Assembly (NCBI GenBank): GCA_019136515.1
Contig: JAGVUB010000158.1
Span: 1 to 64,000 of the forward strand
Source: Verrucomicrobiota bacterium
GTDB lineage: Bacteria; Verrucomicrobiota; Verrucomicrobiia; Opitutales; Opitutaceae
Direction: 5' to 3'
Length of the DNA: 64,000 nt
Positions 1,171 to 64,000 of this stretch are shown here, piece after piece (position 1 is the first letter of the stretch; every line of letters begins with the position of its first letter). The translations under genes were made by a program, and so were the position numbers. The notes beneath the pieces were generated by a model. The model did not search any database. It was not told where the DNA came from and saw nothing but the letters and a program-made list of their open reading frames with translations.

Positions 1171-1452
1171 CCGCAAAGATGATTCGTCATCAAAGACCGG
1201 TGTCAAAAAGGAAGCCGTTCCAGGTTCGCCGTGCCGTGTCCGCGCCCAGCCCCGTGCCGCAACTCGTCACCGCCCACGGTACGTCGTCCACCGGCCGCAT
1301 TGCCCCTGTCGCCTGCCACCCACTCGGAGGCGCGCCGCGCCGTAGATTCCCGCATGTTCTGCGAGGGCACGAATGCCGAACGGCAGAACGCCACCGTCCA
1401 CCGGCCACTGGCAACCGGGGTCCGCGCCGCCGCATCAGTGTGTATCAGTGTG

Positions 1453-1470: not shown

Positions 1471-1525
1471 TGGTTCCACTTCCGTTCGGCCCGCCAGCAA
1501 CGCGCGCACGCGCGTCGCTACCCCC

Positions 1526-1605
1526 GGCCACTGGCAACCGTCCACCGTCCACCGGCTACCGCCCACCGGCAACCGTCCACCGTCCACCGCCCACCGGTCA
1601 CCACC
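1526..1605. repeat. Heptanucleotide repeat tract, CCACCGN type
   Basis: About eleven consecutive 7-bp units of the form (C/T)(C/A/T)ACCGN, for example CCACCGT, CAACCGT, CTACCGC and CCACCGG. The tract ends about 95 bp before the pyrB start. The same unit recurs across the window. Confidence 0.85.
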
Positions 1606-5445: not shown

Positions 5446-5460
5446 AACGGCAACCATCCG

Positions 5461-5544
5461 CCACCGCCCGTCGCCCATCGCCCACTGCCCACCGTCCACC
5501 ACCCACCGTCCACCACCCACCGCCCACCGCCCACCGTCCACCGA
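5461..5544 (+). repeat. Perfectly phased heptanucleotide tract, 12 units
   Basis: Exactly 84 bp, readable as twelve consecutive 7-mers (CCACCGC, CCGTCGC, CCATCGC, CCACTGC, CCACCGT, CCACCAC and so on). It fills the whole space between the stop of the DUF1444-like gene at 5445 and the GTG of nnr at 5547, where a ribosome binding site would lie. Confidence 0.9.
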
Positions 5545-5546
5545 AC

Positions 5547-7124
5547 GTGCACCGCTACGCCCATCCCGTTTTCTCCTGCAAGGAAGCCCTCGACTGGGAG
5601 CGCCGCCAGCTCATCGGCGGTGAGGCGGCCGAGTGGGCCGCGATGCAGCGGGCCGGCCGCGGGGTCGCCCGCGCCATCCTGCGCGACGCCGCCGAGGCCG
5701 GCGGGCTCCGCCCCGCCGCCCGCCTCCTCGTGCTCGCCGGCAAGGGCCACAACGGCGGCGACGCCCTCCTCGCCGCCCGCGCCCTCCTCGCCGCGCGTCC
5801 CCAGGCCACAGTGACAGTCGCCGCCGCCTTCGGCGAGCGCGCCTTCCGCCCCCTCGCCGCCCGCGCCTGGCGTGAGCTCCTCGCCGCCGCGCCCGATCGC
5901 GTCGAGACCGTCGGCGCCCGCGCCCTGCGCGACCGCGTCGCCGCCGAGGAGGAGTGGGACCTCTGCCTCGATGGCATCCTCGGCCTCCAATTCCGCCTCC
6001 CGCTCCCGGCCGACCTCGCCAACCTCCTCGCCACCCTCAACGAGCACCGCTCCTTCGGCCTGCGCGTCGCCGTCGACCTGCCCACCGGGGTGGGCGCGGA
6101 GAACGCCCCCGTCGCCTTCCGCGCCGACTTCACCTACGCCACCGGCATCGTGAAGGAGCCCGTGCTCCGCGCCGCCGCCGCGCCCTCGGTCGGCCGCCTG
6201 CGCTACCTCGACCTCGGTTTCTTCGACGCCGCCGAGCCGTCGCTCGTGCACCAGCACGCGCTCACCGCCGACGTCCTCGACCCGCTCCGCGAGCTGCGTC
6301 CGGCCGGCTGCGACAAGCGCACCTTCGGGCACCTCCTGATCGTCGCCGGCTCATGCGCCATGCCCGGTGCCGCGCTCATGGCCACGCTCGCCGCCTTGCG
6401 CAGCGGCGTCGGCCTCGTCACCGCAGTCGTACCGGAGAGTGTCGCCGCCGCCTTCGCCGCCCGTGCCCCCGAGGCGATGTGGGTGCCCGCCTCCGAGACC
6501 CCTGAAGGCTCCCTCGCCCTCGAGAACCTCACTGCGCTCCGCCCGCACCTCGAACGCGCCACCGCGCTCCTCGTCGGCCCCGGCCTCGGCCGCGAGCGCG
6601 AGACCCAGGCGCTCATCCAGGGCCTGCTCGCACTCGCCGCCTGCCCGGTCGTGCTCGATGCCGATGCGCTCCAGCCGCAAGTGGTTGAAACCCTCGGCGT
6701 GAAGTCCGCCCGCCCGGTCGTGATCACTCCGCACCTCGGCGAGTTTGCCCGTCTCCGTGGTTCGAACACCGCCGGCCCCGTCGAGAACGCCGAGCTCGTC
6801 GACTTCGCCATGGCGCGCAACGTCACCGCCATCCTCAAGGGCCCGGTCTCCCGCCTCACCGACGGCCACTCCGTCTGGCATAGCCTCTTCGGCGGGCCCG
6901 TGCTCGCCCGCGGCGGCAGCGGCGACGTCCTCGCCGGTCTGGTCGCCGGCCGCCTCGCCACCGGCGGCGAGGATGGCCCGCTCGTCCGCGTCGCCCAGGG
7001 TCTCGTCTGGCACGGCCTCGCCGCCGACCGCCTCGCCCGTCACCAAGGAGCCACGTCCGCCGTCACCACTGATCTCCTCGCCCACCTCGCCCCCACGCTC
7101 AACGAAAGCGCCCATGAGCCGTGA
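5547..7124 (+). CDS. nnr: Bifunctional NAD(P)H-hydrate epimerase / ADP-dependent dehydratase
   Basis: Repairs damaged NAD(P)H: the N-terminal domain interconverts R and S hydrates and the C-terminal domain dehydrates the S form using ADP. 525 residues, the full length for the fused form. The YjeF_N-type domain covers about residues 1-220, with LAGKGHNGGDAL. The ribokinase-like dehydratase domain covers 225-525, with VGPGLGRERE, DADALQ, TPHLGEFARL and RGGSGDVLAGLVAG. The start is GTG at 5547, the first codon after the repeat tract; an in-frame ATG at 5442 would prepend 35 repeat-derived residues. The end overlaps dprA by 11 bp. Confidence 0.92.
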   Translation: MHRYAHPVFSCKEALDWERRQLIGGEAAEWAAMQRAGRGVARAILRDAAEAGGLRPAARLLVLAGKGHNGGDALLAARALLAARPQATVTVAAAFGERAFRPLAARAWRELLAAAPDRVETVGARALRDRVAAEEEWDLCLDGILGLQFRLPLPADLANLLATLNEHRSFGLRVAVDLPTGVGAENAPVAFRADFTYATGIVKEPVLRAAAAPSVGRLRYLDLGFFDAAEPSLVHQHALTADVLDPLRELRPAGCDKRTFGHLLIVAGSCAMPGAALMATLAALRSGVGLVTAVVPESVAAAFAARAPEAMWVPASETPEGSLALENLTALRPHLERATALLVGPGLGRERETQALIQGLLALAACPVVLDADALQPQVVETLGVKSARPVVITPHLGEFARLRGSNTAGPVENAELVDFAMARNVTAILKGPVSRLTDGHSVWHSLFGGPVLARGGSGDVLAGLVAGRLATGGEDGPLVRVAQGLVWHGLAADRLARHQGATSAVTTDLLAHLAPTLNESAHEP

Positions 7125-12680: not shown

Positions 12681-12722
12681 CCCACCGTCCACCGGCAACC
12701 GCCCACCGGCAACCGTCCACCG
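12681..12722 (+). repeat. Heptanucleotide tract, 6 units
   Basis: Six phased 7-mers: CCCACCG, TCCACCG, GCAACCG, CCCACCG, GCAACCG, TCCACCG. Confidence 0.85.
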
Positions 12723-12868
12723 AATTTTCTCCGGTGCCGCTTCGAAAATCGCGTCGCTGGCCGATAGAGTACCTCGAGGAGTTTCCTCGCACCGGCCCAC
12801 CCCGCCGCGTGGCCGGTGCGAAGAGGCGCCCGCCCACCCCAACCGTCCACCCACCCCGCCCGGACGCC

Positions 12869-15379
12869 ATGAATACCCACCTGCCCCCGCTCCGCCTCGC
12901 CGGCGCCGCCCTCGCGGCAATCGCCGCGCTCGCCTCCGCCGCCCTCGCCGCCGCCGACTTCGAGCCGCGCATCGAGCAGCTCCTCGCCCAGCTCACGCTC
13001 GAGGAGAAAGTCCATCTCCTCTCCGGCGATACAAGCGACTTCAACGCCCAGGGCCTTCCCCGCCTCGGCATTCCCTCCATTCCGATGGGCGACGGCCCGG
13101 CCGGCATCCGTATCGGTCGTTCCACCGCGTTTCCCGCGCCCATCACCCTCGCAGCCTCCTGGGACGCGGCGCTGGCCACGCGGTTCGGCGACGCCCTCGC
13201 GGCCGAAACCCTCGCCAAAGGCCGCACCTGTATTCTCGGTCCCTGCGTCGGCATCCACCGTTTCCCGCTCAACGGGCGCAACTTCGAGAGCTTCGGAGAG
13301 GATCCCTGGCTCACCTCCCGGCTGGGCGTGGCCGTCATCCGCGGCGTGCAGGCGCGCGGCGTGATCCCCGCCGTGAAGCACTTCGCCGTCAACGACCAGG
13401 AGTGGGAACGCCGCGAGATCGATGTCCGCGTCGACGAGCGCACGCTGCGCGAGATTCACCTGCCCGCCTTCGAAGCCGCCGTGACGGAGGCCGGCGTCTG
13501 GTCCGTGATGGCCTCCTACAACCGCATCAACGGCCCCCACGCCAGCCAATCTGCCCCGTTGCTCACCGACATTCTCAAGGGCGACTGGGGCTTCCGCGGC
13601 ATCGTCATGTCCGACTGGGAATCCGTCTACAGCGATGTCGGCGCCGCCCGCGCCGGCCTCGACCTCGAGATGCCCTCCGCCCTCTGGTTCGGAGAGACCC
13701 TCGTCAAGGCCGTGCGCGACGGCCGAGTGCCCGAGGCGGTGATCGACGACAAGATCCGCCGCCACCTCCGCGTGCGTTTCGAGGCCGGGCTCTTCGACCG
13801 CCCCGCGCCGAGCGAGGACGAGTCCGTCATCCGCAGCGCGGCCCATGTCGCCCTCGCCCGCGAAATCGCCGCCAAGGGCATCGTGCTCCTCAAGAACGAC
13901 GGCCTGCTCCCCCTCGCACCGGAGCGCCTGCACCGTGTCGCCCTCATCGGCCCGGCGATGAACCACGCCCGCACCGGCGGCGGCGGCAGTTCGCTCGTCC
14001 TGCCCTGGCGCACGGTCACGCCGCTCGAGGGCATCACCGCGCTGCTCGGCGAGCGCGTCGAGTGCACCTTCGCCGAGGGTGTCTCCATCGACATGTACCG
14101 CCCGGCGCCCATCCCGGCCGAGTATTTCCACACCCCCGACGGCGCCAGCCCGGGCTTGGTGGCGGAATACTTCGACAACGCCGACTGCTCCGGCGCGCCG
14201 CTCTACACCCAGATCGAGCCCCGCGCCTGCTTCGAGCTCATCGGCGGTTCGCCCGACCCGCGTCTCAACAAGGACTTGTTCTCCATCCGCTGGACCGGCC
14301 GCTTCACCCCGCCGGTCACGCACGACTACGAGCTCACCCTCTTCAGCGACGACGGCTCCCGTCTCTGGCTCGACGGCCGGCTCGTCATCGACCACTGGGG
14401 CGCGCACAGCCTCGCGCCCAAGACCGCCACGATCCGCCTCGAGGCCGGCCGCAGCTACGCCGTGCGCATCGAGTTCTGCGAACTCGGCGGCGACGCCACC
14501 ATGATCTGCGGCTGGCGCGCCCCCGACGACCGCACCCCGCCCCCCACCATCGACGCCGCCGTGGCCGCCGCCCGCGGCGCCGATGCCGCCATTGTCGCCG
14601 TCGGGCTCGCCTCGTTCCTCGAGGGCGAAGGCCGCGATGTCGCCGATTTCCGGTTGCCCGGCGGGCAGGACGAGCTCGTCCAGGCCGTCGCCGCCGCCAA
14701 CCCGAACACCGTGGTGGTCGTCTACGGCGGCGTGCCGCAGCTGGTCGAGCACTGGCTCGGCAACGTGCGCGCCGTCTTCGCCGCATTCTACCCCGGCCAG
14801 GAGGGCGGCAGCGCCCTGGCCGACCTGCTCTTCGGCCGGCTCTCCCCCTCCGGCAAGCTCCCCTTCTCCTACATCCAGCACCGGGAACAATCGCCCGCCT
14901 TTGCCGACTACGGGAAGCCCGACCTCAAGTCGCGCTACACCGAAGGCGTCTTCGTCGGCTACCGTTGGCTCGACCACCACGGGCTCGCGCCGCTCTTCCC
15001 CTTCGGCCACGGCCTCGCGTACACAACTTTCCGGTACGACGACCTCCACCTCGCACCCGGCACCGGCGACACCGTGTGCACCGCCACCCTCGCCGTGACC
15101 AACACCGGCACCATGGCGGCCGAGGAGATCGTGCAACTCTACGTCGCCCCGCCCGCCACCGCGCCCGTCGCCCGCCCGCCGCAGGAGCTCAAGGCCTTCG
15201 CCCGCGTCGCCCTCGCCCCCGGCGAGACCCGCACCGTCACGCTCCCGCTCGGCCCGCGCGCCTTCCAGTATTTCGATCCCGCCGCCCGCGCCTGGACCAC
15301 CGCCCCCGGCCGGTACGAGTTCCGAGTCGGCGCCTCCTCTCGCGACATCCGCATCACCACTCCCTTCACCCGCCCCTAG
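12869..15379 (+). CDS. Secreted GH3 beta-glycosidase with PA14 insert
   Basis: Releases terminal beta-linked sugars (beta-glucosidase or beta-xylosidase type) from oligosaccharides. 836 residues: a signal peptide (LAGAALAAIAALASAALAAA), the GH3 TIM-barrel domain, and the GH3 C-terminal sandwich interrupted by a PA14 domain at about residues 430-575 (LVAEYFDNADCSG, YELTLFSDDGSRLWLDG), then a fibronectin-III-like tail. The nucleophile is expected to be Asp249 in GIVMSDWESVY; KHFAVNDQEWER is also conserved. PA14 inserts often shape the active site or bind glycans. The start at 12869 is chosen for the signal peptide; the 45 upstream in-frame codons are low complexity. It opens the pectin region. 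Confidence 0.93.
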   Translation: MNTHLPPLRLAGAALAAIAALASAALAAADFEPRIEQLLAQLTLEEKVHLLSGDTSDFNAQGLPRLGIPSIPMGDGPAGIRIGRSTAFPAPITLAASWDAALATRFGDALAAETLAKGRTCILGPCVGIHRFPLNGRNFESFGEDPWLTSRLGVAVIRGVQARGVIPAVKHFAVNDQEWERREIDVRVDERTLREIHLPAFEAAVTEAGVWSVMASYNRINGPHASQSAPLLTDILKGDWGFRGIVMSDWESVYSDVGAARAGLDLEMPSALWFGETLVKAVRDGRVPEAVIDDKIRRHLRVRFEAGLFDRPAPSEDESVIRSAAHVALAREIAAKGIVLLKNDGLLPLAPERLHRVALIGPAMNHARTGGGGSSLVLPWRTVTPLEGITALLGERVECTFAEGVSIDMYRPAPIPAEYFHTPDGASPGLVAEYFDNADCSGAPLYTQIEPRACFELIGGSPDPRLNKDLFSIRWTGRFTPPVTHDYELTLFSDDGSRLWLDGRLVIDHWGAHSLAPKTATIRLEAGRSYAVRIEFCELGGDATMICGWRAPDDRTPPPTIDAAVAAARGADAAIVAVGLASFLEGEGRDVADFRLPGGQDELVQAVAAANPNTVVVVYGGVPQLVEHWLGNVRAVFAAFYPGQEGGSALADLLFGRLSPSGKLPFSYIQHREQSPAFADYGKPDLKSRYTEGVFVGYRWLDHHGLAPLFPFGHGLAYTTFRYDDLHLAPGTGDTVCTATLAVTNTGTMAAEEIVQLYVAPPATAPVARPPQELKAFARVALAPGETRTVTLPLGPRAFQYFDPAARAWTTAPGRYEFRVGASSRDIRITTPFTRP

Positions 15380-39420: not shown

Positions 39421-40389
39421 ATGTCTACCCTCCGCCTGCTTCTCGTCGCTATCCCCGCCCTCTCCGCCACTATGTTGACCGCCCTCCCCGCACCGTCGAC
39501 CGGCAACCGGCCACCGGTCACCGTTCCCGCCGCCACTCCCACGACTGTCCCGCTCTGGCCGGAGGGCGTTCCTGATGCCCGACCCGAGATCGGACCCGAA
39601 CAGGTCGATGCCAACGGCAAGGTCACGCGTATCGCCGAGCCCACGCTCACGATCGTTCCGCCCGCCATCGACCGGCCCAACGGCACCGCGGTGATCATCT
39701 GCCCGGGCGGCGGCTACGTCGGTCTCTCCCGCCAACGCGAGGGCTTCCAGTATGCCAACTGGCTCAGCACGCTCGGCGTCACCGCGTTCGTGCTCACCAA
39801 CCGGGTCGGCGACTACGGCCACCCGGCCCCCCTGCAGGACGTGCTCCGTGCCGTCCGCCTCGTGCGCTCCCGCGCTGTCGAATTCCGTATCGATCCGTCC
39901 CGCGTCGGAGTGATGGGCAGCTCGGCCGGCGGACACCTCGCCGCCTGCGCCGGCACGCTCTTCGACCACCCGGCCGGCCGGACCGGCGCCGCGTTGGACG
40001 CCGTATCCGCCCGTCCGGACTTCCTGCTCCTGATGTACCCGGTCATCACCCTCGACGATCCGGTCGCCCATGCCGGTTCGCGGCGGGCGTTGCTCGGCGC
40101 ACAACCAGCGCCCGAGCTGCTCCGCCTGCTCTCCGTCGAGAAACAGGTCACGGCCGCCACGCCGCCGACCCTGCTCATCCATACCCAGGAGGACCAGAGC
40201 GTCCCGGTCGAGAACAGCATCCTCTTCTTCCAGGCGCTCACCCGCGCCCGCGTGCCCGCCGAGATGTATCTTTTCGAGCACGGCGGCCACGGCATGGGCA
40301 TGCGCGACGGCCTCGGCACCGCCTCCGACTGGCCCCGCCGCGCCGAGGAATGGCTCCGCGCCCGCGGGTTGCTCACGTCCGCCCGTTAG
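39421..40389 (+). CDS. Secreted alpha/beta-hydrolase, acetylesterase type
   Basis: 322 residues. Signal peptide MSTLRLLLVAIPALSATMLTA, then a short repeat-encoded linker (PSTGNRPPVTVPAATPTT) from in-frame heptanucleotide units at 39491-39525. The hydrolase core has the oxyanion motif CPGGGYVGLS, the nucleophile elbow GVMGSSAGGHLA, and acid and base in HTQEDQSVPVEN and FEHGGHGMGM. It resembles BD-FAE/Axe-type acetyl xylan or pectin acetylesterases and would deacetylate pectic oligosaccharides. The ATG at 39421 is chosen for the signal peptide. It starts the plus-strand half of the pectin region. Confidence 0.88.
   Translation: MSTLRLLLVAIPALSATMLTALPAPSTGNRPPVTVPAATPTTVPLWPEGVPDARPEIGPEQVDANGKVTRIAEPTLTIVPPAIDRPNGTAVIICPGGGYVGLSRQREGFQYANWLSTLGVTAFVLTNRVGDYGHPAPLQDVLRAVRLVRSRAVEFRIDPSRVGVMGSSAGGHLAACAGTLFDHPAGRTGAALDAVSARPDFLLLMYPVITLDDPVAHAGSRRALLGAQPAPELLRLLSVEKQVTAATPPTLLIHTQEDQSVPVENSILFFQALTRARVPAEMYLFEHGGHGMGMRDGLGTASDWPRRAEEWLRARGLLTSAR
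39491..39525 (+). repeat. In-frame heptanucleotide tract in the esterase gene
   Basis: Five 7-bp units (CACCGTC, GACCGGC, AACCGGC, CACCGGT, CACCGTT) directly after the signal-peptide codons. Confidence 0.75.
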
Positions 40390-41866: not shown

Positions 41867-41871
41867 GCCCA

Positions 41872-41972
41872 GTAGGTCCGGTCTCCAACCGGACACCCCC
41901 GATACCAGTCCTCGCCTCTCGCCCACCACCACCCAGCAGCACCCGCCGCAACGGGTCGGAGACCGGTCCTAC
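41872..41972. repeat. GTAGGTCCGG REP pair, copy 3
   Basis: Left arm GTAGGTCCGGTCTCCAACC, right arm GTCGGAGACCGGTCCTAC. The interior shares ATACCAG with other copies. Confidence 0.88.
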
Positions 41973-42067
41973 CCATCGTCCCCCCACCACCGGCCGCCCG
42001 CCGTTCCAGTTTTCCTGATTTCCACAGTCTCCCGCCGCCGTCCGTCGGCATCCCACCGACCTCCGCC

Positions 42068-42102
42068 CAATCGCAAATCGGCAATCCAGAATCGAAATTC
42101 CC
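42068..42102 (+). repeat. Second-family heptanucleotide leader before PL11
   Basis: Five phased 7-mers run exactly up to the start codon: CAATCGC, AAATCGG, CAATCCA, GAATCGA, AATTCCC, then ATG at 42103. There is no Shine-Dalgarno sequence. Confidence 0.8.
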
Positions 42103-44181
42103 ATGCGCCTCCCCCTCTCCCTCCTCGCCTTCTCCACCGCCGTCTCCTTGGCCCATTCTGCCGTACGGCAGAACGCGCCCGCCACACCGGCCACCGACCA
42201 CCGGCCACCGGCCACCGAACTCCGCGTCATGGAGAGTCTCGGCCGCGGTGTCGTCGCCATCCACCAACCCAACGGCGCCGTGTTCGTCTCATGGAGACTC
42301 CTCGCCACCGATCCGGCCGGCACCGCCTTCAACCTCTACCGCACCACCGCCGCTGCCGATCCCTCCCCCGACGCCGGTCCATTCGGCTCGCGCCCCGATT
42401 CCGCCGCCGGCCCGATGAAGCTCAATGCCGAACCATTGCGCGACGTAACTTGGTTTCTCGATACCAACGCCCGCCTCGAACGCGAGACCGCCTATTTCGT
42501 CCGCCCCGTCGTCGACGGCCGCGAGGGCGACCCGAGTGCCGTGTTCACGATCGCCGCCGGCACCCCGCCGCGGCCCTACGTCTCCATCCCGCTCCAGACA
42601 CCCGCCGGCTACACCCCCGGCGACGCCTCCGCCGGCGACCTCGATGGCGATGGCGAATACGAGATCGTCCTCAAGCAGGAGCAGCGCCCCCAGGACAACT
42701 CCCGCCCCGGCCTCACCGGCGAGACCCTCCTCCAAGCCTACAAGCTCGACGGCCGCCACCTCTGGACGATCAACCTCGGCAAAAACATCCGCGAAGGCGC
42801 GCACTACACCCAGTTCATGGTGTACGACCTCGACAGCGACGGCCGCGCCGAGGTCGCCTGCAAGACCGCCGACGGCACCCTCGACGGCACCGGCCAGCCC
42901 ATCGGCGATCCCGCCGCCGACTGGCGTTCCCTCGGTTCCGAGTCCGTCCCCACCACCGACTCCGCCGGCGCCCAGAAAACATCCCAAGGCCTAGTCGCCC
43001 GCACCGAGGGCACCATCCTCCGCGGCCCCGAGTACCTGACCATCTTCGACGGCCGCACCGGCGCCGCGCTCGCCACCACCGCCTACGTTCCCGGCCGCCA
43101 TCCCGACACCCAGGACCCCTCCACCGAGCAGATGAAGGCCGTCTGGGGCGATGGTTACGGCAACCGCTCCGACCGCTTCCTCGCCTGCGTCGCCTACCTC
43201 GACGGGGTTCACCCGAGCCTGGTCATGTGCCGCGGTTACTACACGCGCGCCGTGCTCGCCGCCTGGGACTGGCGCGACGGCAAGCTCTCGCAGCGCTGGG
43301 TCTTCGACTCCGACTCCTCCGAGGCCAACCGCGCCTACCGTGGTCAAGGCAACCACAACCTCTCCGTCGCCGATGTCGATCGCGACGGCCGCGACGAGAT
43401 CGTCTACGGTGCCGCCGTGATCGACGACGACGGCACCGGCCTCTACTCCACCGGCTGGGGTCACGGCGACGCCCTCCACGTCGGCGATCTCGTACCCGCT
43501 AATCCGGGACTCGAAATCTTCGACATCCAGGAACGTTTCGACCAGCAGGGCATGAGCCTGCGCGACGCCGCCACCGGTCGTATCATCTTCACCATCCCCT
43601 CCGTGAAGGCCGACGAGGACGGCGGAGACAAGGGCGAGGGCCCCGGTCGCGGCAACGCCTTCAACATCGATCCCCGCTTCCGCGGCGCCGAGTGCTGGGC
43701 CGCCGGGTCCGGCATGGACGGGCTCTACGCCGCCGACGGCAAACGCCTTCTCGACCGTCGCCCACGCGGTTTCCCCACCAACTTCGGCATCCTCTGGGAC
43801 GGCGATCTGCTCCACGAACTCCTCGACCAGAACCGCATCGTGAAGTGGAACTGGCAGACCGGCACGATCGACCCGCTTCTCGTCGCCCACGCCTGCGTCT
43901 CCAACAACAGCACCAAGGCCACGCCCGCCCTCAGCGCCGATCTCTTCGGCGACTGGCGCGAGGAGGTCGTCTGGCGCACCCGCGACAACAAGGAGCTGCG
44001 CATCTACACCACGACGACCCCGACGAAGCACCGCCTCGTCACGCTCATGCACGACTCCGTCTACCGCCTCGCCATCGCGTGGCAGAACGTCGCCTACAAC
44101 CAGCCGCCGCACCCAAGCTTCTACCTCGACGATTCCGCTCCGCTCCCGCCCGCCCCGCTCATCGCCGTGCCGCGCCAGTAG
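42103..44181 (+). CDS. Secreted rhamnogalacturonan lyase, PL11 family
   Basis: Cleaves the rhamnose-galacturonate backbone of RG-I by beta-elimination. 692 residues. The signal peptide is followed by a repeat-encoded segment (HSAVRQNAPATPATDHRPPA) and then the YesW/YesX-like fold from ELRVMESLGRGVVAI onward. Calcium-site motifs DLDGDGEYEIVLK, DLDSDGRAEVACKTADGT and DVDRDGRDEIVYGA mark the eight-bladed propeller; GWGHGDALHVGDL and NNSTKATPALSADLFGDWREE are typical of PL11. The 18-bp dyad and five heptanucleotide units lie inside the N-terminal codons. The TAG stop belongs to the downstream GTAGGTCCGG repeat. Confidence 0.95.
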   Translation: MRLPLSLLAFSTAVSLAHSAVRQNAPATPATDHRPPATELRVMESLGRGVVAIHQPNGAVFVSWRLLATDPAGTAFNLYRTTAAADPSPDAGPFGSRPDSAAGPMKLNAEPLRDVTWFLDTNARLERETAYFVRPVVDGREGDPSAVFTIAAGTPPRPYVSIPLQTPAGYTPGDASAGDLDGDGEYEIVLKQEQRPQDNSRPGLTGETLLQAYKLDGRHLWTINLGKNIREGAHYTQFMVYDLDSDGRAEVACKTADGTLDGTGQPIGDPAADWRSLGSESVPTTDSAGAQKTSQGLVARTEGTILRGPEYLTIFDGRTGAALATTAYVPGRHPDTQDPSTEQMKAVWGDGYGNRSDRFLACVAYLDGVHPSLVMCRGYYTRAVLAAWDWRDGKLSQRWVFDSDSSEANRAYRGQGNHNLSVADVDRDGRDEIVYGAAVIDDDGTGLYSTGWGHGDALHVGDLVPANPGLEIFDIQERFDQQGMSLRDAATGRIIFTIPSVKADEDGGDKGEGPGRGNAFNIDPRFRGAECWAAGSGMDGLYAADGKRLLDRRPRGFPTNFGILWDGDLLHELLDQNRIVKWNWQTGTIDPLLVAHACVSNNSTKATPALSADLFGDWREEVVWRTRDNKELRIYTTTTPTKHRLVTLMHDSVYRLAIAWQNVAYNQPPHPSFYLDDSAPLPPAPLIAVPRQ
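42156..42173 (+). repeat. 18-bp dyad inside the PL11 N-terminal codons
   Basis: TTCTGCCGTACGGCAGAA, identical to the intergenic copy at 1453, here encoding part of HSAVRQN. Confidence 0.88.
42184..42218 (+). repeat. In-frame heptanucleotide tract in PL11
   Basis: Five units ACACCGG, CCACCGA, CCACCGG, CCACCGG, CCACCGA, just before the mature domain. Confidence 0.85.
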
Positions 44182-44282
44182 GTCCGGTCTTCGACCGGAC
44201 ACCCTCGATACCAGCCACCGCACCACGCCCCGCGTCGTCCGACCCAGCATTATCCACCGCGACCGGTCGGAGACCGGCCCTA
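44178..44282. repeat. GTAGGTCCGG REP pair, copy 4 (supplies PL11 stop)
   Basis: Left arm starts in the final codons of PL11 (GCCAGTAGGTCCGG). The right arm reads GACCGGTCGGAGACCGGCCC. The interior contains CCTCGATACCAGCC, close to copies at 45500 and 51286. Confidence 0.9.
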
Positions 44283-44334
44283 CGCACCGATCCCGCCCGC
44301 TGCGGGACGCCGAGCTCCAGCTCGGTCATCCGCC

Positions 44335-44420: not shown

Positions 44421-45503
44421 ATGCGCCGCCTGATCCCTTCCGTCGTGCTTCCGTTTCTCGTCGTGGTCCTGCCGGCGCACTCCGGGCAAAGTTCACCGGC
44501 CATTGGCGCCCGGCCACAGGACACCCGCAACCGACAACCGTCCGCCGCCCACCGTTCACCGTCCACCGATAGCGCCGCGTCCACCGCCATGGCCACCAAC
44601 CCCATCGTCTCCCACCTCTTCACCGCCGATCCGGCCGCGCGAGTCTTCGGCGACCGCCTCTATGTCTACACCTCGCATGACGAGAAGGACGCCACCTACT
44701 TCGACATGTTCGACTGGCGGCTCTTCTCCACCGCCGACCTCGCCACTTGGCAGGACCACGGCTCGGTCTTCGGCCTGACGGGGTTCGCGTGGGCCGAGAA
44801 GTGGGCCTGGGCGCCCGACGCCGTGCACGCCAACGGCCGCTACTACCTCTTCCTTCCCACCGACCGCGCCCGCATCGGCGTCGCGGTCGGCGACTCGCCC
44901 ACCGGCCCCTTCCGCGACGCCATCGGCCGCCCGCTGCTCGACAAGGCCCTGATGCCCGAGGTCGGCCCCGAGCCGATCGACCCCGCCGTCCTCCTCGACG
45001 ACGACGGCACCGCGTACCTGTATTTCGGATGCCGTTTCCCCAAGTTTGTGAAGCTCGCCCCCTCGCTCACCGAGCTTGCCGGTCCCGTGCAAGATGTCGC
45101 GTTGCTCGATCCACAGGGCAACCCCGTTCCCGTCGCCGCACCCGAGAAACAACCCGCGCTCCCCATGGGCTACGGCGAGGCGCCGTTCCTCTTCAAACGC
45201 GAGGGCCGCTACTACTTCGTCTACTCCAACGGCTGGGCCAAGGAGTCGACGCTCGTCTACGCCATCGGCGACTCGCCGACCGGTCCATTCACCTACCAGG
45301 GCGAGGTGATGAAGCACGTGCCCTGCGTCACCCACCACGGCTCCGTCGTCGCCTTCCGCGGCAAGTGGTACGTCGTCTACCACACCAGCGAGCTCTCCGG
45401 CGGGAACATGTTCCGCCGCGCGGTCTGCATCGACGAACTCACCTTCGACTCCTCCGGCCGGATCATCCCCGTCATCGCGACTCCGTCCGCGAGGACCCCG
45501 TAG
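44421..45503 (+). CDS. Secreted GH43 glycosidase with repeat-encoded linker
   Basis: 360 residues. Signal peptide MRRLIPSVVLPFLVVVLPAHS is followed by a 35-residue linker encoded by heptanucleotide repeats (ARPQDTRNRQPSAAHRSPST). The five-bladed propeller begins at NPIVSHLFTADPAARVFGD, with the base Asp in TADPAAR. The pKa-modulating Asp is in IDPAVLLDDDG, and the acid Glu in GYGEAPFLFKREG. It probably acts on arabinan, xylan or galactan decorations of pectin; the exact linkage is uncertain. An in-frame ATG at 44589 (MATNPIVSH) would drop the signal peptide and linker and is less likely. The stop TAG is part of a GTAGGTCCGG repeat. Confidence 0.88.
   Translation: MRRLIPSVVLPFLVVVLPAHSGQSSPAIGARPQDTRNRQPSAAHRSPSTDSAASTAMATNPIVSHLFTADPAARVFGDRLYVYTSHDEKDATYFDMFDWRLFSTADLATWQDHGSVFGLTGFAWAEKWAWAPDAVHANGRYYLFLPTDRARIGVAVGDSPTGPFRDAIGRPLLDKALMPEVGPEPIDPAVLLDDDGTAYLYFGCRFPKFVKLAPSLTELAGPVQDVALLDPQGNPVPVAAPEKQPALPMGYGEAPFLFKREGRYYFVYSNGWAKESTLVYAIGDSPTGPFTYQGEVMKHVPCVTHHGSVVAFRGKWYVVYHTSELSGGNMFRRAVCIDELTFDSSGRIIPVIATPSARTP
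44491..44570 (+). repeat. In-frame heptanucleotide tract in GH43
   Basis: About 80 bp of degenerate CCACCGN/CAACCGN units between the signal peptide and catalytic domain. Confidence 0.8.
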
Positions 45504-45604
45504 GTCCGGTCTCCGACCGGGCCGCCCCGGCTCCAGCCCACGCACCACAACTCGCGCCGTTCCACCCTGCATCATCCGCCGCGACCGGTCACAGACCGGT
45601 CCTA
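45500..45604. repeat. GTAGGTCCGG REP pair, copy 5 (supplies GH43 stop)
   Basis: Left arm GTAGGTCCGGTCTCCGACC at the GH43 stop, right arm GACCGGTCACAGACCGGTCC. Confidence 0.88.
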
Positions 45605-45712
45605 CGCACCGTTTCAACCCTCCAATTTTGTGTTTGGCGTTGAACGTCCGAAGTTCCTCGCGTCTCCGCCAGTTGCAGTTCGGCGCTTCGAAACCGCAAC
45701 TTCCATCCTCCC

Positions 45713-47244
45713 ATGCGCCGCCTCCTCTCCTACCTCGGCCTCGTCCTTCCGCTTCTCCTCGTGGCGCAGACGGCCCTGCCGGCGCACTCCGGCCAAGGTT
45801 CACCGTCCACCGGCAACCGGACACCGGCAACCGGGCCTGCCGTGACACCGGCCACTGGCGACCGGCCGCAAGACACCGGCAACCGACAACCGGCCACCGC
45901 TCACCGTCCACAGTCCACCGCCCACCGCCTCCTGCCCATCGCCGACGACGCTTGGTCCGGCACCTCCGTCAACGTCATCGCCGGTCTCCAGAATTCGATC
46001 ATCACCGACCGATCCTCCCAGTACGCCGCCTTCTACGCCGCCGATGCCACCCTCGTCCTCGCGCACCGCGAGATCGGCAGCGACACCTGGTCCACGCAGC
46101 GCACCGGGCTGACCGGCCACCCGACCGACGCCCACAACACCGTCGCTATCGCCGTCGACGGCGACGGCTTCCTCCACGTCGCCTGGGACCATCACGACAA
46201 TCCGCTCAACTACGCCCGCAGCGTGGCACCCGGCTCGCTCGAGCTCGGCCCGCGCCAGCCCATGACCGGCCGTCACGAGAACAGCGTCACCTATCCCTCC
46301 TTCCTGCGCCTGCCCGACGGCGACCTCCTCTTCCTCTATCGCGACGGCCGCTCCGGCCGCGGCAACCTCGCGCTCAACCGCTACAACATCCGCACCAAGA
46401 CTTGGACACAGGTGCAGCCGAACCTCATCGACGGCGAGGGCCGGCGCAGCGCCTACTCCTCCGTCACCATCGACTCGAGCGGCGTGCTCCACCTCGCCTG
46501 GGTCTGGCGCGACACCCCCGACGTCGCACCGGAGAGCCACTGCGCGTTCCCATCACCGCCGCCACCGCCGACTACGCCCTGCGCCTCCCGGCCGGCCGGT
46601 CATTGATGAACCCGCCCAGCCTCGGCACCGACGAGCAGGGCTGGCCCTACCTCGCCAGCTACTGGTGTCCGGACGGTTCGGATATTCCGCAATTCCACCT
46701 CGTGACGCGCGATGCGGATCGCTGGGTGGTGCAGCCGGTCACCCGGCGAACCACTCCGTTCGTCCTCGCCGGCACCTCCACCAAGCGCCCCCCGCTCTCC
46801 CGCGCCATCGTCGTCGCCCGAAGCGAACCGACGACGGCACGCGCCGCCTGTGTCGTCTACCGCGACGACGAGCGCGGCGGCCGCATCGTCGCCGCCGAAT
46901 GCCGCGACCTCGGCCGGTCCGAGTGGGAGTACCACGAGTTGACCACCGGATCCGTCGGTGCCTGGGAGCCTTCGTTCGATCCCGCTCAATGGTCACGCTC
47001 CGGACAGCTTCACCTCCTCGTCCAACGCGTTGAGCAGCGCGATGGCGACGACCAGCGCGCCGCCGTCGCGCCACCGAGCCCCATCGCCTCGCTGATCTGG
47101 GTACCATTCGCCGCCGGCCCCACCATCACGCGCTCCCCTGTACCACAAAGCTCCCCTCCGCCGCTTCGAAGCACCCACGCGCACCGCCAGAATTCACCGA
47201 GCCCCGGCGCGGTCCTTCGACCAACCGCCGCCGCGATCCCGTAG
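45713..47244 (+). pseudogene. BNR-4 family secreted propeller protein, broken by a deletion/frameshift
   Basis: Frame 1 (45713-46606) encodes a signal peptide (MRRLLSYLGLVLPLLLVAQT), a long repeat-derived linker and blades with VAWDHHDNPLNYARS, SVTYPSFLRLPDGDLLFLYRDG and HLAWVWRDTPDVAPES. It then runs into meaningless Pro-rich sequence. The continuation is in another frame from about 46535: EPLRVPITAATADYALRLPAG, DEQGWPYLASYWCPDGSDIPQ, to a stop at 47244. Intact relatives would have about 15-20 residues between the halves, so a small deletion that shifted the frame is likely. The family includes polysaccharide lyases and related propellers acting on uronate-rhamnose linkages. A sequencing error is possible. 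The final stop is the TAG of a GTAGGGCGCG repeat. Confidence 0.75.
45800..45930 (+). repeat. Longest in-frame heptanucleotide tract
   Basis: About 130 bp of degenerate CCACCGN, CAACCGG and ACACCGG units, encoding a Pro/Thr/Asn/Arg/His linker in the BNR-4 remnant. Confidence 0.85.
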
Positions 47245-47362: not shown

Positions 47363-48355
47363 ATGCTCCGCCGCTCACTCCTCATACTCATCCTCGTTGC
47401 CCTTGCGTCTGTGCTGCCTCCACCAGCGGCCGCCGCCTCCACACCGCCCGCCGGCAACCGTTCACCGGCCACCGTCCTCGCCGACGAGCGCGTGCTCTGG
47501 ATGGGCGACAGCATCACCCAGGCGGGCGGCTACGTGACCTTCGTCGAGTACTACCTCGCCCGCGCCTACCCGCAGGAGCGATTCGACATCGTCGCCATCG
47601 GACTGAACAGCGAAACGGTCTCCGGCCTCACCGAGTCGACCCACGGTTCCATCCGTCCCTGCGCGCTCGACCGCCTGCCCCGCGCGCTCGAGTTGGTGAA
47701 GCCCACCGTCGTCGTCGCCTGCTACGGCATGAACGACGGCATCTACCACCCGCCCGCCGCCGAGCGCCAGCAGGCCTTCGAGGCCGGCATCCGAAAACTC
47801 CTTGCAACCTGCCGCGCCGCTCGCGCCCGGGTCATCCTGCTGACCCCGCCACCGTTCGACCGCGTCCCGCCCGGCCGCCACCTCCAGCCCGCCACCGCTC
47901 CAGTCTTCGGTTACGGCACTCCCTACGAGGCCTACGACGACGTGCTCGCCGCCTTCGCCCGCTGGGAGACGACGCTTCCCTCCGACCGCGCGCTGGTGAT
48001 CGATCTCCACACCGGCGTGAACGCCTACCTCGCCCAGCGCCGCCAGACCACGCCCGCCTTCACCCTCGCGCCCGACGCCGTCCACCCCGGCGACCTCGGC
48101 CATCTCCTCATGGCGCAACTCGTCCTCCGCGGCCTCGGCTTCGAGCTTCCCGCCACCGCATCCGATCTCGACGCCGAGCTCGCCCGCATCCAGGCCGACC
48201 CGCTCTACCCGCTGATCAAGCAGCAGCGCGAGAAACGCTCCGAGGGCTGGCGCGCCGCCGTCGGCCTACCCGCCGCCGCCATCAACGCCGACGCCGAGTG
48301 CGCCGAGCTCCAGCCACAGATCGACACTCTGCTCGCCCCCGCCGCCAACCGCTGA
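47363..48355 (+). CDS. Secreted SGNH/GDSL hydrolase
   Basis: 330 residues. Signal peptide MLRRSLLILILVALASVLPPPAAA, then a short repeat-derived bridge (STPPAGNRSPATV). The SGNH core has block I WMGDSITQAGGY, block III CYGMNDGIY (Asn of the oxyanion hole), and the C-terminal DAVHPGDLGHLLMA with Asp and His of the triad. It is probably an acetylesterase for pectin or hemicellulose. The leader ends CAACCGC, CAATCCC, ATG. The stop is one base before the GH28 start, so translation is likely coupled. Confidence 0.88.
   Translation: MLRRSLLILILVALASVLPPPAAAASTPPAGNRSPATVLADERVLWMGDSITQAGGYVTFVEYYLARAYPQERFDIVAIGLNSETVSGLTESTHGSIRPCALDRLPRALELVKPTVVVACYGMNDGIYHPPAAERQQAFEAGIRKLLATCRAARARVILLTPPPFDRVPPGRHLQPATAPVFGYGTPYEAYDDVLAAFARWETTLPSDRALVIDLHTGVNAYLAQRRQTTPAFTLAPDAVHPGDLGHLLMAQLVLRGLGFELPATASDLDAELARIQADPLYPLIKQQREKRSEGWRAAVGLPAAAINADAECAELQPQIDTLLAPAANR
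47448..47476 (+). repeat. Short in-frame heptanucleotide tract in the SGNH gene
   Basis: About four units (CCGGCAACCG, TTCACCGGCCACCG context), again immediately after the signal peptide. Confidence 0.65.
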
Positions 48356-50032: not shown

Positions 50033-50153
50033 GTAGGTCCGGTCTCCGACCGGACACCCGCGACACCGGCCCATACCCCACGCCACAAACCACCCACGCC
50101 TCACGCCGCTCCACCCGGCAACACCCCCGCAACCGGTCGGAGACCGGTCCTAC
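50033..50153. repeat. GTAGGTCCGG REP pair, copy 6
   Basis: Left arm GTAGGTCCGGTCTCCGACC, right arm AACCGGTCGGAGACCGGTCC then TAC, downstream of GH28. Confidence 0.9.
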
Positions 50154-50257
50154 CCACCCTCCCGCTCGCCTTGGGAACGCCGACCTCCCGCTAGGCCCCT
50201 CCGCCCGTTCCGCAATCTCGAAGGTTCTCCCGCACAAGAGAACGCACTCAGCAATCC

Positions 50258-51289
50258 ATGCGCGCCCGCACTTCCATCATCGTCCTCGGCCTCGCCCTCG
50301 CGCTGCTGCCTCTTGCCCGCGCCGAATCCGCCCAACCGCCGGCCTTCGCCACGGCGCAGCGCATCCGCGTGATCGTCGACAATGACTTCGGCGGCGACCC
50401 CGACGGTCTCTTTCTCCTCGCCCACCTGCTCCTTTCGTCCTCGACCGACGTCCGCGGCATCATCGCCTCGCAACATCACGCCACCGGTTTCTACGGACAC
50501 CCCGGCACGCCGGCGCACGCGCACGAACAGGCCTCCGCCCTGCTCCGCCTCGTCGCGCCCAACCTCGCCCCGCGCCTCGTGCTCGGATCCGCCACCGGTC
50601 TCGCCGACCGCCAGACTCCGGCCGACTCCGCCGGTGCGCGCCTCATCGTGCAGGAAGCCCTGCGCGACGACACCACGGTCCCGCTCTACGTCCTCTGCGG
50701 CGGCGGGCTTACCAACATCGCCAGCGCCTACCTCCTCGACCCGCGCATCGCCTCGCGCCTGCGCCTCGTCTGGATCGGCGGCCCCGAGCACCCCGGCCAC
50801 GCCCAGCCGCCGCCCGGTGCCGGGAATGTCGAATACAACCTCAGCATCGACCGCCTAGCCGCCCAGGTCGTCTTCAACATCTCCGCGATCCCGCTCTGGC
50901 AGGTCCCACGCGACGCCTACCGGCAGGCGCTCGTCTCCACCGCGGAACTCTCCGCCCGGATCGACGCCCACGCCCCGCTCGGTGCCTTCCTTCTCGGCAG
51001 CCTCGACGATCTCCTCCAGCGCGCCCAGGGCTCGCTCGGCGAAGCTTACGTCCTCGGCGACAACCCGCTCGTTCTCCTCTCTGCCCTGCAATCCTCCTGG
51101 GAACGCGATCCGTCCTCGAGCCGCTACGTCGAGCTCCCTGCTCCGCTCATCAACGACGCCGGCGCCTACGAACCCAACCCCGCCGGCCGGCCAATCCGCG
51201 TCTACACGACCTTGGACACCAGGCTGCTCTTCGAGGATCTCTACGCCAAAATCCACCGCTTCGATCATCCGAGATCTCCTACGCCGTAG
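50258..51289 (+). CDS. Exported nucleoside hydrolase-like protein
   Basis: 343 residues with a signal peptide (MRARTSIIVLGLALALLPLARAE). The IUNH-like fold is shown by the calcium-binding N-terminus RVIVDNDFGGDPDGLFLLAHLLL, a variant of the DTDxGxDDA motif, and by VPLYVLCGGGLTNIA and RLRLVWIGGPEHPG. NVEYNLSIDRLAAQVVF supplies further ligands. Intracellular relatives split ribonucleosides; exported ones in polysaccharide loci may act on other N- or O-glycosides, so the substrate is open. The leader ends CAATCC before the ATG. The TAG stop is supplied by a GTAGGTCCGG repeat. Confidence 0.82.
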   Translation: MRARTSIIVLGLALALLPLARAESAQPPAFATAQRIRVIVDNDFGGDPDGLFLLAHLLLSSSTDVRGIIASQHHATGFYGHPGTPAHAHEQASALLRLVAPNLAPRLVLGSATGLADRQTPADSAGARLIVQEALRDDTTVPLYVLCGGGLTNIASAYLLDPRIASRLRLVWIGGPEHPGHAQPPPGAGNVEYNLSIDRLAAQVVFNISAIPLWQVPRDAYRQALVSTAELSARIDAHAPLGAFLLGSLDDLLQRAQGSLGEAYVLGDNPLVLLSALQSSWERDPSSSRYVELPAPLINDAGAYEPNPAGRPIRVYTTLDTRLLFEDLYAKIHRFDHPRSPTP

Positions 51290-51391
51290 GTCCGGTCTCC
51301 GACCGGACACCCTCGGCACCAGCACGTCTCTCCTCCCGCCGCCTTCATTCCCATCGGTATCCGCTGCGACCGGTCGAAGACCGGTCCTACC
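51286..51391. repeat. GTAGGTCCGG REP pair, copy 7 (supplies stop)
   Basis: Left arm GTAGGTCCGGTCTCCGACC starting in the last codons of the nucleoside-hydrolase-like gene, right arm GACCGGTCGAAGACCGGTCC then TAC. Confidence 0.9.
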
Positions 51392-51439
51392 CGTCGATCA
51401 AACTCGCCCCTCTCGCTTCGCTACCTCCAAACCCGCTCG

Positions 51440-51577: not shown

Positions 51578-53113
51578 ATGCGCCTCCCCGCCGCCATCTC
51601 CACCCTCCCGGTTCTCTTTGCCACCCTTGCCGCCCCCCTCGCCGTGGCGCAGGCGGCCCAACCTGCGAATCCGACTTCCGTGGCACCGCCCACTGTCAAC
51701 CGTTCACCGTCCACCGATAGCGCCGCCGTTTCACCGGCCACCGACCACCGGCCACCGCTCACCGGCCCCGCGCCACGCGCCTTCGACTTCACCCAGCTCA
51801 CCGCTGCCGACACCTTCACCGCCGAGCGCGGCTACGGCTTCGACCTCGGCACCGCCCCTTCCGCCACCTCCCAATCGGTGGCGCAGGGTTCCCTGCCTGC
51901 GAAATCCGCCGTCGCCGGCACGGAGGCCGGCGCCACACCGTCCACTTCGTCCCAGACCGTGGCGCAGGCGTCCCTGCCTGCGATCCCCACCTCCGCCACA
52001 TCCCCGACCGCCGGCACCGCGCCCTCCGCCGCGAACACCCCGTTCTACTTCTCCGTCGCCGTACCCGAGGGGAACTACCGCGTCACCGTCACCTTCGGCG
52101 ACACCACCGCGCCCTCCGCCAACACCGTGAAAGCCGAGTCGCGCCAGCTCCTCCTCGAGTCGCTCGCCACCCGGCCCGGCGAGCTCGCCACCCGCACGTT
52201 CACCGTCAACGTGCGCAACGCCACGCTGCCCCCGCCGCCACAGAACGCCCCCGGCGGCACCGCCGTGCTCCTCAACCCACGCGAGGTCGGGCTGCTGCGC
52301 TGGGACGACAAGCTCACGCTCGAGTTCAACGGCGCCGCCCCGCGCATCCGCTCCGTGGAGATCGCGCCCGCGCCCGACGCGCCGACCGTCTTCCTCGCCG
52401 GCGACTCGACCGTGACCGACCAGCCGCACGAGCCCGCCGCCGGCTGGGGCCAGATGCTCCCGCGTTTCCTCCGCCCCGATGTCGCCGTCGCCAACCACGC
52501 CGAGTCCGGCGAGACGCTGAAGTCCTTCCTCTCCGAGCTGCGCCTGGCGAAGATCCTCGCGCAGATGAAGGCGGGCGACTTCCTCTTCATCCAGTTCGGC
52601 CACAACGACGAGAAGAAGCAGTGGCCGCAGACGTACGTCGAGGCGCGCACGACCTACAAGGCCTACCTGCGCGCCTTCATCGCCGAAGCGCGCCTGCGCG
52701 GTGCCACGCCAGTCCTCGTCACCTCCATGCAGCGCCGCACCTTCGACGAGCACGGCAGGATCAAAAACACCCACGGCGACTACCCCGCCGCCGTGCGCGA
52801 GGTCGCCGCCGAGGAGAAGGTCGCCCTCGTCGACCTCGACCGCGCCAGCACCGCCTTCTACGAGGCGCTCGGTCCCGAGCGCGCCCCGCTCGCCTTCAGC
52901 GCCGGGGGCAAGGACGCCACTCACCACAACAACTACGGCGGCTTCCAGCTCGCCAAGGTCGTCGCCCAAGCGCTCCGCGACGCCGGTCCCGAGCTCGCCG
53001 CCCTCGTGTCTCCGGATTTCAACGGTTTCGATCCCGCGCATCCGGACGCCCCCGAGACCTTCGCGCTTCCCGCCAGCCCCGCCCGCAGCGACGCCGCCCT
53101 CCGCGGCAACTGA
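51578..53113 (+). CDS. Secreted CE12 rhamnogalacturonan acetylesterase with repeat-expanded N-terminal domain
   Basis: 511 residues. A signal peptide (LPVLFATLAAPLAVAQA) precedes a repeat-encoded linker (TVNRSPSTDSAAVSPATDHR) and a galactose-binding-like domain (RAFDFTQLTAADTFTAERGYGFDLG ... PFYFSVAVPEGNYRVTVTFGD). That domain is split by about 50 residues encoded by GTGGCGCAGG repeats. The CE12 catalytic domain runs from about residue 265: FLAGDSTVTDQ (Ser), AESGETLKSFLSE, IQFGHNDEKKQ and DATHHNNYGG (Asp/His). It removes acetyl groups from RG-I galacturonate, opening the chain to PL11 and GH28. The domain split would probably form a flexible loop. Confidence 0.92.
   Translation: MRLPAAISTLPVLFATLAAPLAVAQAAQPANPTSVAPPTVNRSPSTDSAAVSPATDHRPPLTGPAPRAFDFTQLTAADTFTAERGYGFDLGTAPSATSQSVAQGSLPAKSAVAGTEAGATPSTSSQTVAQASLPAIPTSATSPTAGTAPSAANTPFYFSVAVPEGNYRVTVTFGDTTAPSANTVKAESRQLLLESLATRPGELATRTFTVNVRNATLPPPPQNAPGGTAVLLNPREVGLLRWDDKLTLEFNGAAPRIRSVEIAPAPDAPTVFLAGDSTVTDQPHEPAAGWGQMLPRFLRPDVAVANHAESGETLKSFLSELRLAKILAQMKAGDFLFIQFGHNDEKKQWPQTYVEARTTYKAYLRAFIAEARLRGATPVLVTSMQRRTFDEHGRIKNTHGDYPAAVREVAAEEKVALVDLDRASTAFYEALGPERAPLAFSAGGKDATHHNNYGGFQLAKVVAQALRDAGPELAALVSPDFNGFDPAHPDAPETFALPASPARSDAALRGN
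51684..51766 (+). repeat. In-frame heptanucleotide tract in CE12
   Basis: Degenerate CCACCGN units interrupted by AGCGCCGCC, encoding the linker after the signal peptide. Confidence 0.8.
51878..51982 (+). repeat. GTGGCGCAGG elements inside CE12 coding sequence
   Basis: GTGGCGCAGGGTTCCCTGCC at 51878, an inverted partner ending CCGGCGCCAC at 51936, and GTGGCGCAGGCGTCCCTGCC at 51959. A further degenerate copy at 51644 encodes the end of the signal peptide. Confidence 0.8.
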
Positions 53114-61294: not shown

Positions 61295-61512
61295 GCACTG
61301 CATGGTTTCCCGAGAACCCAGCGCCACACCGGCAGCCAAGATGGCTCCTCTCCGTTCCTGATTTCCTGATTTCCACATTCCTCTCCGGAACCCGCCCACC
61401 GTCTCCCTCCTTCCGTCCACTGGCCACCGGCAACCGGCTACCGCCCACAGCCCCCCGCCAACCATCGGCCATCTGCCTTCCGCCATCGTCCTTCCTCCTT
61501 CAGCCTTCCCTC

Positions 61513-62840: not shown

Positions 62841-62876
62841 TCACCGTCCACCGCCCACCGGCAACCGGCTACCGCT
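62841..62876 (+). repeat. Heptanucleotide tract
   Basis: Five phased units from TCACCGTCCACCGCCCACCG onward, ending in CTACCGC. Confidence 0.75.
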
Positions 62877-63093: not shown

Positions 63094-64000
63094 ATGAAAC
63101 TTCTCGATCTCAACCGGCACGGCGGCATCGGCGCCAGCTGCCACCTCGTGCAACTCGGCGACGTCCGCATCATCATCGATTGCGGCCTGCACCCCAAGCT
63201 CACCGGGGCCGAGGCCACGCCCGACCTCTCCCCGCTCGACGGTCTCGAGGTCGACCTGATCATCATCACTCACTGCCACCTCGACCACATCGGCTCCCTG
63301 CCGCTGCTGCTCCGCCGCCAGCTTCGCGCCCCGGTCGTGATGTCCTCCTCCAGCGCACTCCTGCTCGCGCGCATGCTCCACAACTCGGTCAGCGTAATGG
63401 AACGCCAGCGCGAGGAGCAGTCCCGCGGCGACCTCCCGCTCTTCACCCACGAGGAGGTCGACCGCTGCGCCCAACGCTTCCACTCCCTCGCCTTCGGCCA
63501 GACGCGCAAGATCAGCGGCGCCAAGGACGACGTCGAGGTGACCCTCCACCCCGCCGGCCATGTCGCCGGCGCCGCCGGCGTCGAGCTCCGGCACAAGGGC
63601 CGCCACATCTTCTTCTCCGGCGATGTGCTCTTCGAGGGCCAGCGCACCGTCCCCGGCGCCCGGTTCCCCGCCGGCCGCTTCGACACCATCGTGCTCGAGA
63701 CCACCCACGGCGCCACCGAACCCGTCGCCGGCCGCACCCGCGAGTCCGAGATCAACCGCCTGCTCGACACGGTCAACCACACCATCGCCCGCGGCGGGTC
63801 CGTGCTCATCCCCGTCTTCGCCCTCGGCCGTCACCAGGAGTTGCTCACCATCTTCCACGACGCCCGCGAGAACCGCCGCCTCGCCAAGTGCCCGATCTAC
63901 AGCTCCGGCCTCGGCATCGATCTGTGCGACTACTTCGACGACGTCGCACGCAAGACCAGCCACGTCCACTTCAGCCGCTCCGTGCTCAAGGCCCTCAAGG
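63094..64000 (+). CDS. Metallo-beta-lactamase/beta-CASP family hydrolase (partial)
   Basis: 302 codons from ATG 63094 to the right edge with no stop. The MBL metal motif is THCHLDHIG (His60, His62, Asp64, His65). HPAGHVAGAAGVELRHKG and FFSGDVLFEGQRTV supply further His and Asp ligands. The beta-CASP insertion starts with DTIVLETTHGA and IARGGSVLIPVFALGRHQELL. Such proteins are RNA-processing exo/endonucleases related to CPSF73 and bacterial RNase J-like enzymes. The N-terminus MKLLDLNRHGGIGASCHLV supports the start. Confidence 0.9.
   Translation, partial: MKLLDLNRHGGIGASCHLVQLGDVRIIIDCGLHPKLTGAEATPDLSPLDGLEVDLIIITHCHLDHIGSLPLLLRRQLRAPVVMSSSSALLLARMLHNSVSVMERQREEQSRGDLPLFTHEEVDRCAQRFHSLAFGQTRKISGAKDDVEVTLHPAGHVAGAAGVELRHKGRHIFFSGDVLFEGQRTVPGARFPAGRFDTIVLETTHGATEPVAGRTRESEINRLLDTVNHTIARGGSVLIPVFALGRHQELLTIFHDARENRRLAKCPIYSSGLGIDLCDYFDDVARKTSHVHFSRSVLKALK

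Follow-up and report, generated by a model that had tools for sequence, protein, structure and literature searches.

The window analysed here (the whole 64,000-nucleotide stretch of DNA) raises the question of why degenerate heptanucleotide tracts are read in frame directly after the signal peptides of several secreted enzymes, and whether this position is special to the repeat or is one of a number of places where the repeat is tolerated. Heptameric repeats are common in bacteria, have been little studied, and are described as mainly intergenic. The initial annotation of this DNA proposed that the tracts form linkers at signal-peptide junctions and that a change in the number of 7-bp units could switch the enzymes on and off. 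The tracts themselves were present at the positions it had named, both outside genes (1391-1418 with 1521-1597, 5454-5544, 12682-12723, 61417-61489 and 62841-62875) and in frame in six secreted enzymes, where they follow the signal peptide. The hydrophilic linkers with a seven-codon periodicity that it had placed between signal peptide and mature domain also agree with the sequence, in that the in-frame translation is open.

Tracts of the window and the genes that carry them

The tracts, all on the plus strand, are given below; G000 denotes this genome, and G001 and G002 are congeners.

1391..1418, +: four C[CA]ACCGN units, located in the pyrB 5' region
1521..1597, +: tract of 11 units 5' of the pyrB gene (1700-2647), found in G002 and not in G001
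5454..5544, +: 13-unit tract immediately 5' of the gene at 5547; also of the CCACCGN type in G002, a GCCTTCN heptad in G001
12682..12723, +: 6-unit tract about 150 bp 5' of the GH3 gene at 12869
39490..39524, +: 5-unit in-frame tract after the signal peptide of a BD-FAE-type esterase (39421-40389)
42068..42095, +: related tract of the CAATCGN type, shortly 5' of the PL11 start codon
42184..42218, +: 5-unit in-frame tract separating the signal peptide of PL11 (42103-44181) from its RGI_lyase domain
44493..44569, +: in-frame tract, about 11 units long, after the signal peptide and before the GH43 domain (gene 44421-45503)
45800..45928, +: longest in-frame tract, after the signal peptide of BNR-4 (gene 45713-46606, broken near 46550)
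47441..47475, +: 5-unit in-frame tract after the signal peptide of an SGNH/GDSL hydrolase (47363-48355)
51683..51717 and 51731..51765, +: two in-frame tracts after the signal peptide of a CE12-like GDSL hydrolase (51578-53113)
61417..61489, +: intergenic tract flanked by two minus-strand genes
62841..62875, +: 5-unit intergenic tract 5' of the gene at 63094

The six secreted-enzyme genes lie between 39 and 53 kb, and each carries one or two in-frame tracts between a hydrophobic N-terminus and the first recognisable domain. The reading frames of all six continue through the tracts, and the Pfam domains start past them (RGI_lyase at residue 41 of PL11, GH43 at residue 59, BNR_4 at residue 103); signal peptides were assigned by a crude rule, not by SignalP. 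The junction pattern would be lost if the true starts lay downstream of the tracts, and this could apply to the GH43 gene alone among the six: a second ATG at 44589, immediately past the tract, is favoured by the gene finder, and the start at 44421 yields a good signal peptide. The BNR-4 gene has a deletion and a frameshift near 46550, outside its tract, and about 25 residues are missing in comparison with its relative in G005; judged from these features it is probably a remnant, and an assembly error could also account for the break.

The GH43 and BNR-4 genes duplicate each other in their 5' segments and tracts (87% over 75 bp, 80% over 61 bp), and the CE12 and BNR-4 genes share 130 bp at 71% identity, indicating that the six junction cases are not independent insertions. 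The sequence ACCGATAGCGCC was considered as a recurring end of the tracts and was rejected, as it is present in the GH43 and CE12 genes only.

The repeat unit and its census in the genome

The unit has the consensus C-[C/A]-A-C-C-G-N, in which positions 1, 3, 4, 5 and 6 (C, A, C, C and G) are almost invariant in the tracts, position 2 is C or A, and position 7 is unconstrained. The plus strand of the window holds 18 CMACCGN chains of at least three units, against 2.0 (order-1) or 4.5 (order-5) in simulated sequence, and a search of the complete genome for (CMACCGN)x3 returned 82 matches against none for the same pattern read backwards. A wider pattern, CMWYCNG, gave no usable control comparison, its reversed form resembling the CCACCGN type. 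In 577 kb of the genome, made up of stretches picked mostly around tracts, 71 regions with a period of 7 were detected, and apart from the multiples of 7 no period had more than 6; a 140-kb sample picked irrespective of tracts held three period-7 regions and none or one for the other periods. Seven, with its multiples, was thus the sole tandem period enriched in the sample, and in this respect, as in its dispersal and mainly intergenic location, the repeat belongs with the heptameric simple sequence repeats. Contingency repeats are near-perfect and readily change their number of units, whereas 40 of 72 tracts here have no exact extra unit at all and just 3 of the 72 have two or more.

With a strict definition the whole genome contains 45 tracts spread over about 30 contigs, all of which were examined in context; 29 are intergenic, 15 lie in coding DNA in the sense orientation and one is antisense, so that about two thirds are intergenic and about a third (16 of 45) overlap coding DNA. 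A looser definition, applied to the sampled stretches only, gave 47 intergenic, 24 coding sense and one coding antisense tract. The density in the sampled stretches was 0.43 tracts per kb of non-coding DNA versus 0.05 per kb of coding DNA.

Whether the coding copies favour signal-peptide junctions was judged from a junction zone defined as residues 15 to 70 from the start of signal-peptide genes, which makes up 5.4% of the coding length. Inside the window all coding tracts fall in this zone (3/3 strict, 6/6 loose). The window was chosen because it shows the pattern, and therefore the fair test is the figure obtained outside it, where junctions account for just 1 of 13 strict coding tracts and for 2 of 19 loose ones. 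The general tie to signal-peptide junctions that had been proposed is not supported beyond the window: with 0.7 expected among the 13 strict tracts, they are nearly as common elsewhere in coding DNA, and the junction excess is slight at most. A mechanism confined to signal peptides was rejected on the same grounds, the coding tracts outside the window being rarely at junctions.

The sense strand has properties that could account for its prevalence in coding DNA. Because 7 and 3 have no common factor, it specifies one Pro/Thr/His/Arg-rich heptapeptide whichever frame is used (PPSTVHR, PPATGHR and QPATGNR are examples), while the antisense strand yields peptides resembling TVDGGRW. Among the 61 tracts of at least 35 bp, all three frames are open in 52 on the sense strand and in 20 on the antisense strand, the mean hydropathy is -1.30 for sense and -0.24 for antisense peptides, and the sense RNA is predicted to fold more weakly than the antisense RNA in every case (61/61). 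Stop-free frames, a hydrophilic peptide and weak RNA folding would each be able to favour sense copies within genes.

Taken with the data presented below, the census documents dispersal, a sense bias, maintenance of the reading frame, sites that tolerate length change, and turnover between congeners. We consider it fairly probable that the tracts represent a dispersed, degenerate heptanucleotide repeat, neutral or selfish, which is tolerated in genes where a hydrophilic, stop-free and weakly folded insert is harmless, and that the signal-peptide position is one such tolerated site among several. The repeat would have multiplied within this Opitutaceae genus, in all likelihood as DNA that is neutral or selfish, and selection would purge frame-breaking gains and losses, copies in structured parts of proteins, and antisense copies, leaving coding copies that resemble designed linkers. 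The cluster of junction tracts in the window may then reflect tolerant sites in secreted enzymes together with the copying of 5' segments between neighbouring genes. Some tracts are old and could have acquired a use. A stronger statement, according to which the spreading repeat is a frame-independent maker of linkers in both secreted and housekeeping enzymes, with some of the linkers now kept for their function, is one that we regard as tentative and on the whole doubtful.

Intergenic and coding tracts among related genomes

The strict pattern has 82 matches in this genome, 100 in G002 and one in G001, and most of the family has few or nearly none. Its distribution over the phylum is uneven, with matches in 16 of the 289 sampled genomes, and four-unit matches also occur in unrelated phyla. 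Other heptads, of the CAATCNG/CCGCAAT and GCCTTCN types, are found in the same genus. The acpS-nnrD spacer carries CCACCGN units in G000 and G002 and GCCTTCN units in G001 (L216 2134-2330, compared with 5454-5544 of the window), and the orthologous pyrB spacer of G001 has no CCACCGN tract.

The location of the intergenic tracts bears on an explanation in which the repeat acts in the mRNA leader, or as a nucleic-acid site, to control translation or termination, for example through weakly folded C-rich RNA or a structure of the G-rich complement, with the coding copies as by-products. The tracts are oriented with the following gene in 32 of 45 cases (P 0.007; the mis-started GH43 gene is counted among the 32), and many lie 16-60 nt upstream of its start, a leaning and a closeness that could be compatible with a role in the 5' leader, as could the weak folding of the sense RNA. 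Similar positions have been described for TAACTGA repeats (PMC4679880) and for GGGAATC repeats (PMC4692102). The strand bias of the coding copies could likewise reflect a role at the RNA level. However, 13 of the 45 intergenic tracts have the opposite orientation, no common function is apparent among the genes downstream of the intergenic tracts, the repeat is nearly missing from most related genera, congeners carry different types of unit at the one spacer mentioned above, and the G runs of the complement are of two residues only. A leader or nucleic-acid function as the general explanation therefore seems unlikely.

Coding tracts away from signal-peptide junctions were found in genes for MnmA, RsmB, OGT, UvrA, a DinG-like helicase, an AztC/ZnuA-like metal-binding protein, a NapH-like iron-sulphur protein and a heavy-metal P-type ATPase (NCBIfam names), in a gene whose product we read as AsmA-like, and in others. 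Taken together, the coding tracts of the genome sit in segments whose length varies freely among orthologues, which may be hairpin loops, linkers between domains, C-terminal tails or the junctions of signal peptide and mature protein. Residues 128-178 of MnmA have no equivalent in solved MnmA structures; the corresponding loop has 54 residues in G000, 52 in G002, 77 in G001, 25 in G005, 7 in G004 and 26 in a sixth genome of the family. A structure of MnmA predicted from four sequences was too poor for use (mean pLDDT 46.7).

Two genes deserve separate mention. The UvrA gene (L029 6681-12842) encodes 2053 residues with a duplicated architecture and contains inserts from two heptad families, which are read as SAFRNPQS and PPTTGHR peptides. 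The only antisense coding tract is in the heavy-metal P-type ATPase gene (L038 6862-9456), where a second G-rich heptad-like insert, ETGNREPETDDRRPDTG, is present too.

All 11 coding sites compared in G002, and all 7 measured in G001, differ in length from those of G000 and remain in frame. No out-of-frame allele was seen in these 18 orthologous comparisons, which were between species only and required open frames for alignment; the maintenance of the frame is for this reason support rather than proof. Heptad-like peptides in several loops of G000 are also present in G002 and partly in G001, and their occurrence in matching loops of G002 indicates that parts of the tracts predate the split of G000 and G002. 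The sequence within the loops turns over, and more distant relatives lack the inserts; a clean empty site marking an insertion event within coding DNA was not caught among the relatives compared.

One could envisage that the in-frame tracts were recruited, and have been retained, as useful disordered Pro/Thr-rich linkers. The persistence of heptad-derived peptides at matching loops of G000 and G002, the preserved frame and the junction and linker positions are all in keeping with such use. On the other hand, the MnmA loop ranges from 7 to 77 residues among relatives, the sequence of the loops turns over, and more distant relatives manage without tracts; we consider recruitment quite improbable as the general explanation. 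The frame-sensitive switching that had been suggested is unsupported, since the frame is kept despite the changes in length and the units are degenerate, an exact extra unit being missing from 40 of the 72 tracts. Phase variation of secreted enzymes through junction linkers has very little likelihood in our estimation: it would suit the six of six window coding tracts that follow signal peptides and the frame shift that one gained or lost unit would cause, yet junction tracts are only 1 of the 13 strict coding tracts elsewhere, the exact repeats are short, all orthologous sites compared are in frame, and the longest coding tract belongs to the BNR-4 gene, which is broken at another point.

Described repeat families and other repeats in the same DNA

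The reading we favour, a dispersed repeat tolerated in genes, can be set beside the repeat systems already described. Cyanobacterial STRR sequences are tandem repeats of seven bases, and those of Calothrix are cited in PMC4692102. They have other units, and translation as linkers is not described in the sources consulted. PMC4692102 describes the GGGAATC and GGGGA(C/T)T heptamers found in Xanthomonas and Nostoc, which share with CMACCGN a degenerate seven-base tandem unit, dispersal, a mostly intergenic location, a C-rich strand that is the coding strand shortly upstream of genes, and long repeats that two related species do not carry at the same genes. Their units have G runs of three, with four units preferred, which points to quadruplexes; the complement of CMACCGN, NCGGTGG, has G runs of two, unlike the runs of three that would let GGGNATC repeats form a three-layer quadruplex. 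They overlap coding regions in 7-11% of cases, compared with 16 of the 45 CMACCGN tracts, and in-frame linkers in conserved enzymes are not described for them in that part of the report (PMC4692102).

The TAACTGA direct repeats found in Beggiatoaceae, Cyanobacteria and Bacteroidetes, for which a role in the mRNA leader has been proposed (one is discussed for GGGAATC repeats in PMC4692102), are also seven-base repeats with a patchy distribution over distant taxa, mostly just 5' of start codons, and a few are translated, one of them within an RNA polymerase beta-prime-like protein, in a region that varies (PMC4679880). Because their forward units have stops in all frames, their coding copies are mostly in reverse orientation and at protein ends (PMC4679880). 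CMACCGN has a different unit, its sense strand is stop-free, and its copies have internal positions in conserved enzymes.

Rickettsia palindromic elements have palindromic units of 100-150 bp and are dispersed within pre-existing open reading frames that they leave intact (Ogata et al. 2000, cited in PMC3767692). CMACCGN copies likewise keep the frame within MnmA, RsmB, OGT, the AsmA-like protein and others, a likeness in effect and not one of membership, as the tracts are 7-bp direct tandem repeats. The enterobacterial repeats RU-1 to RU-3 are small intergenic repeats that also provide open frames within genes, including those of signal-peptide proteins; they differ in being like mobile elements, with units of 103-168 bp and no heptad tracts (PMC2759123). 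The CMACCGN repeat thus behaves like the dispersed heptamers outside genes and like the Rickettsia elements inside them, and does not have the sequence hallmarks that define any one of the described families.

As far as the literature searched shows, it is new that so large a share of the tracts is coding and that a heptad recurs as an in-frame insert in conserved enzymes. Nothing on heptads in Verrucomicrobia was found in that search, in which subscription journals were largely not covered, so a prior account may exist. Since about a third of the tracts are in coding frames, many of them in conserved enzymes, and relatives with and without the repeat are available, a direct test is possible of how simple repeats generate new protein segments and of which traits (absence of stops, a frame-independent peptide, solubility of the peptide, weakly folded RNA) make coding repeats tolerable.

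Other repeats were observed in the same DNA. One of them, GTAGGTCCGGTCTCCGACCGG ... CCGGTCGGAGACCGGCCCTAC, is palindromic, measures about 115-125 bp and is situated at the ends of genes in the window (44178-44283, 45500-45620 and 51286-51408), with further copies at 41869-41983 and 50033-50217. The PL11, GH43 and nucleoside hydrolase genes take their stop codon from the TAG of its left arm, and in the 577 kb examined there are 18 left arms and four stop codons supplied in this way. An 18-bp palindrome, TTCTGCCGTACGGCAGAA, is present at 42156-42173 and 1453-1470 of the window and is found between genes as well; in the signal-peptide region of PL11 it is translated in frame as SAVRQNA, and a similar peptide occurs in the AsmA-like protein (L009). 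In-frame translation of a further repeat gives VAQASLPA, twice in CE12 (window 51870-51985), in the AsmA-like protein (L009 16684-19998) and in a third gene (L040 4796-6199). The AsmA-like protein contains pieces of several repeat families.
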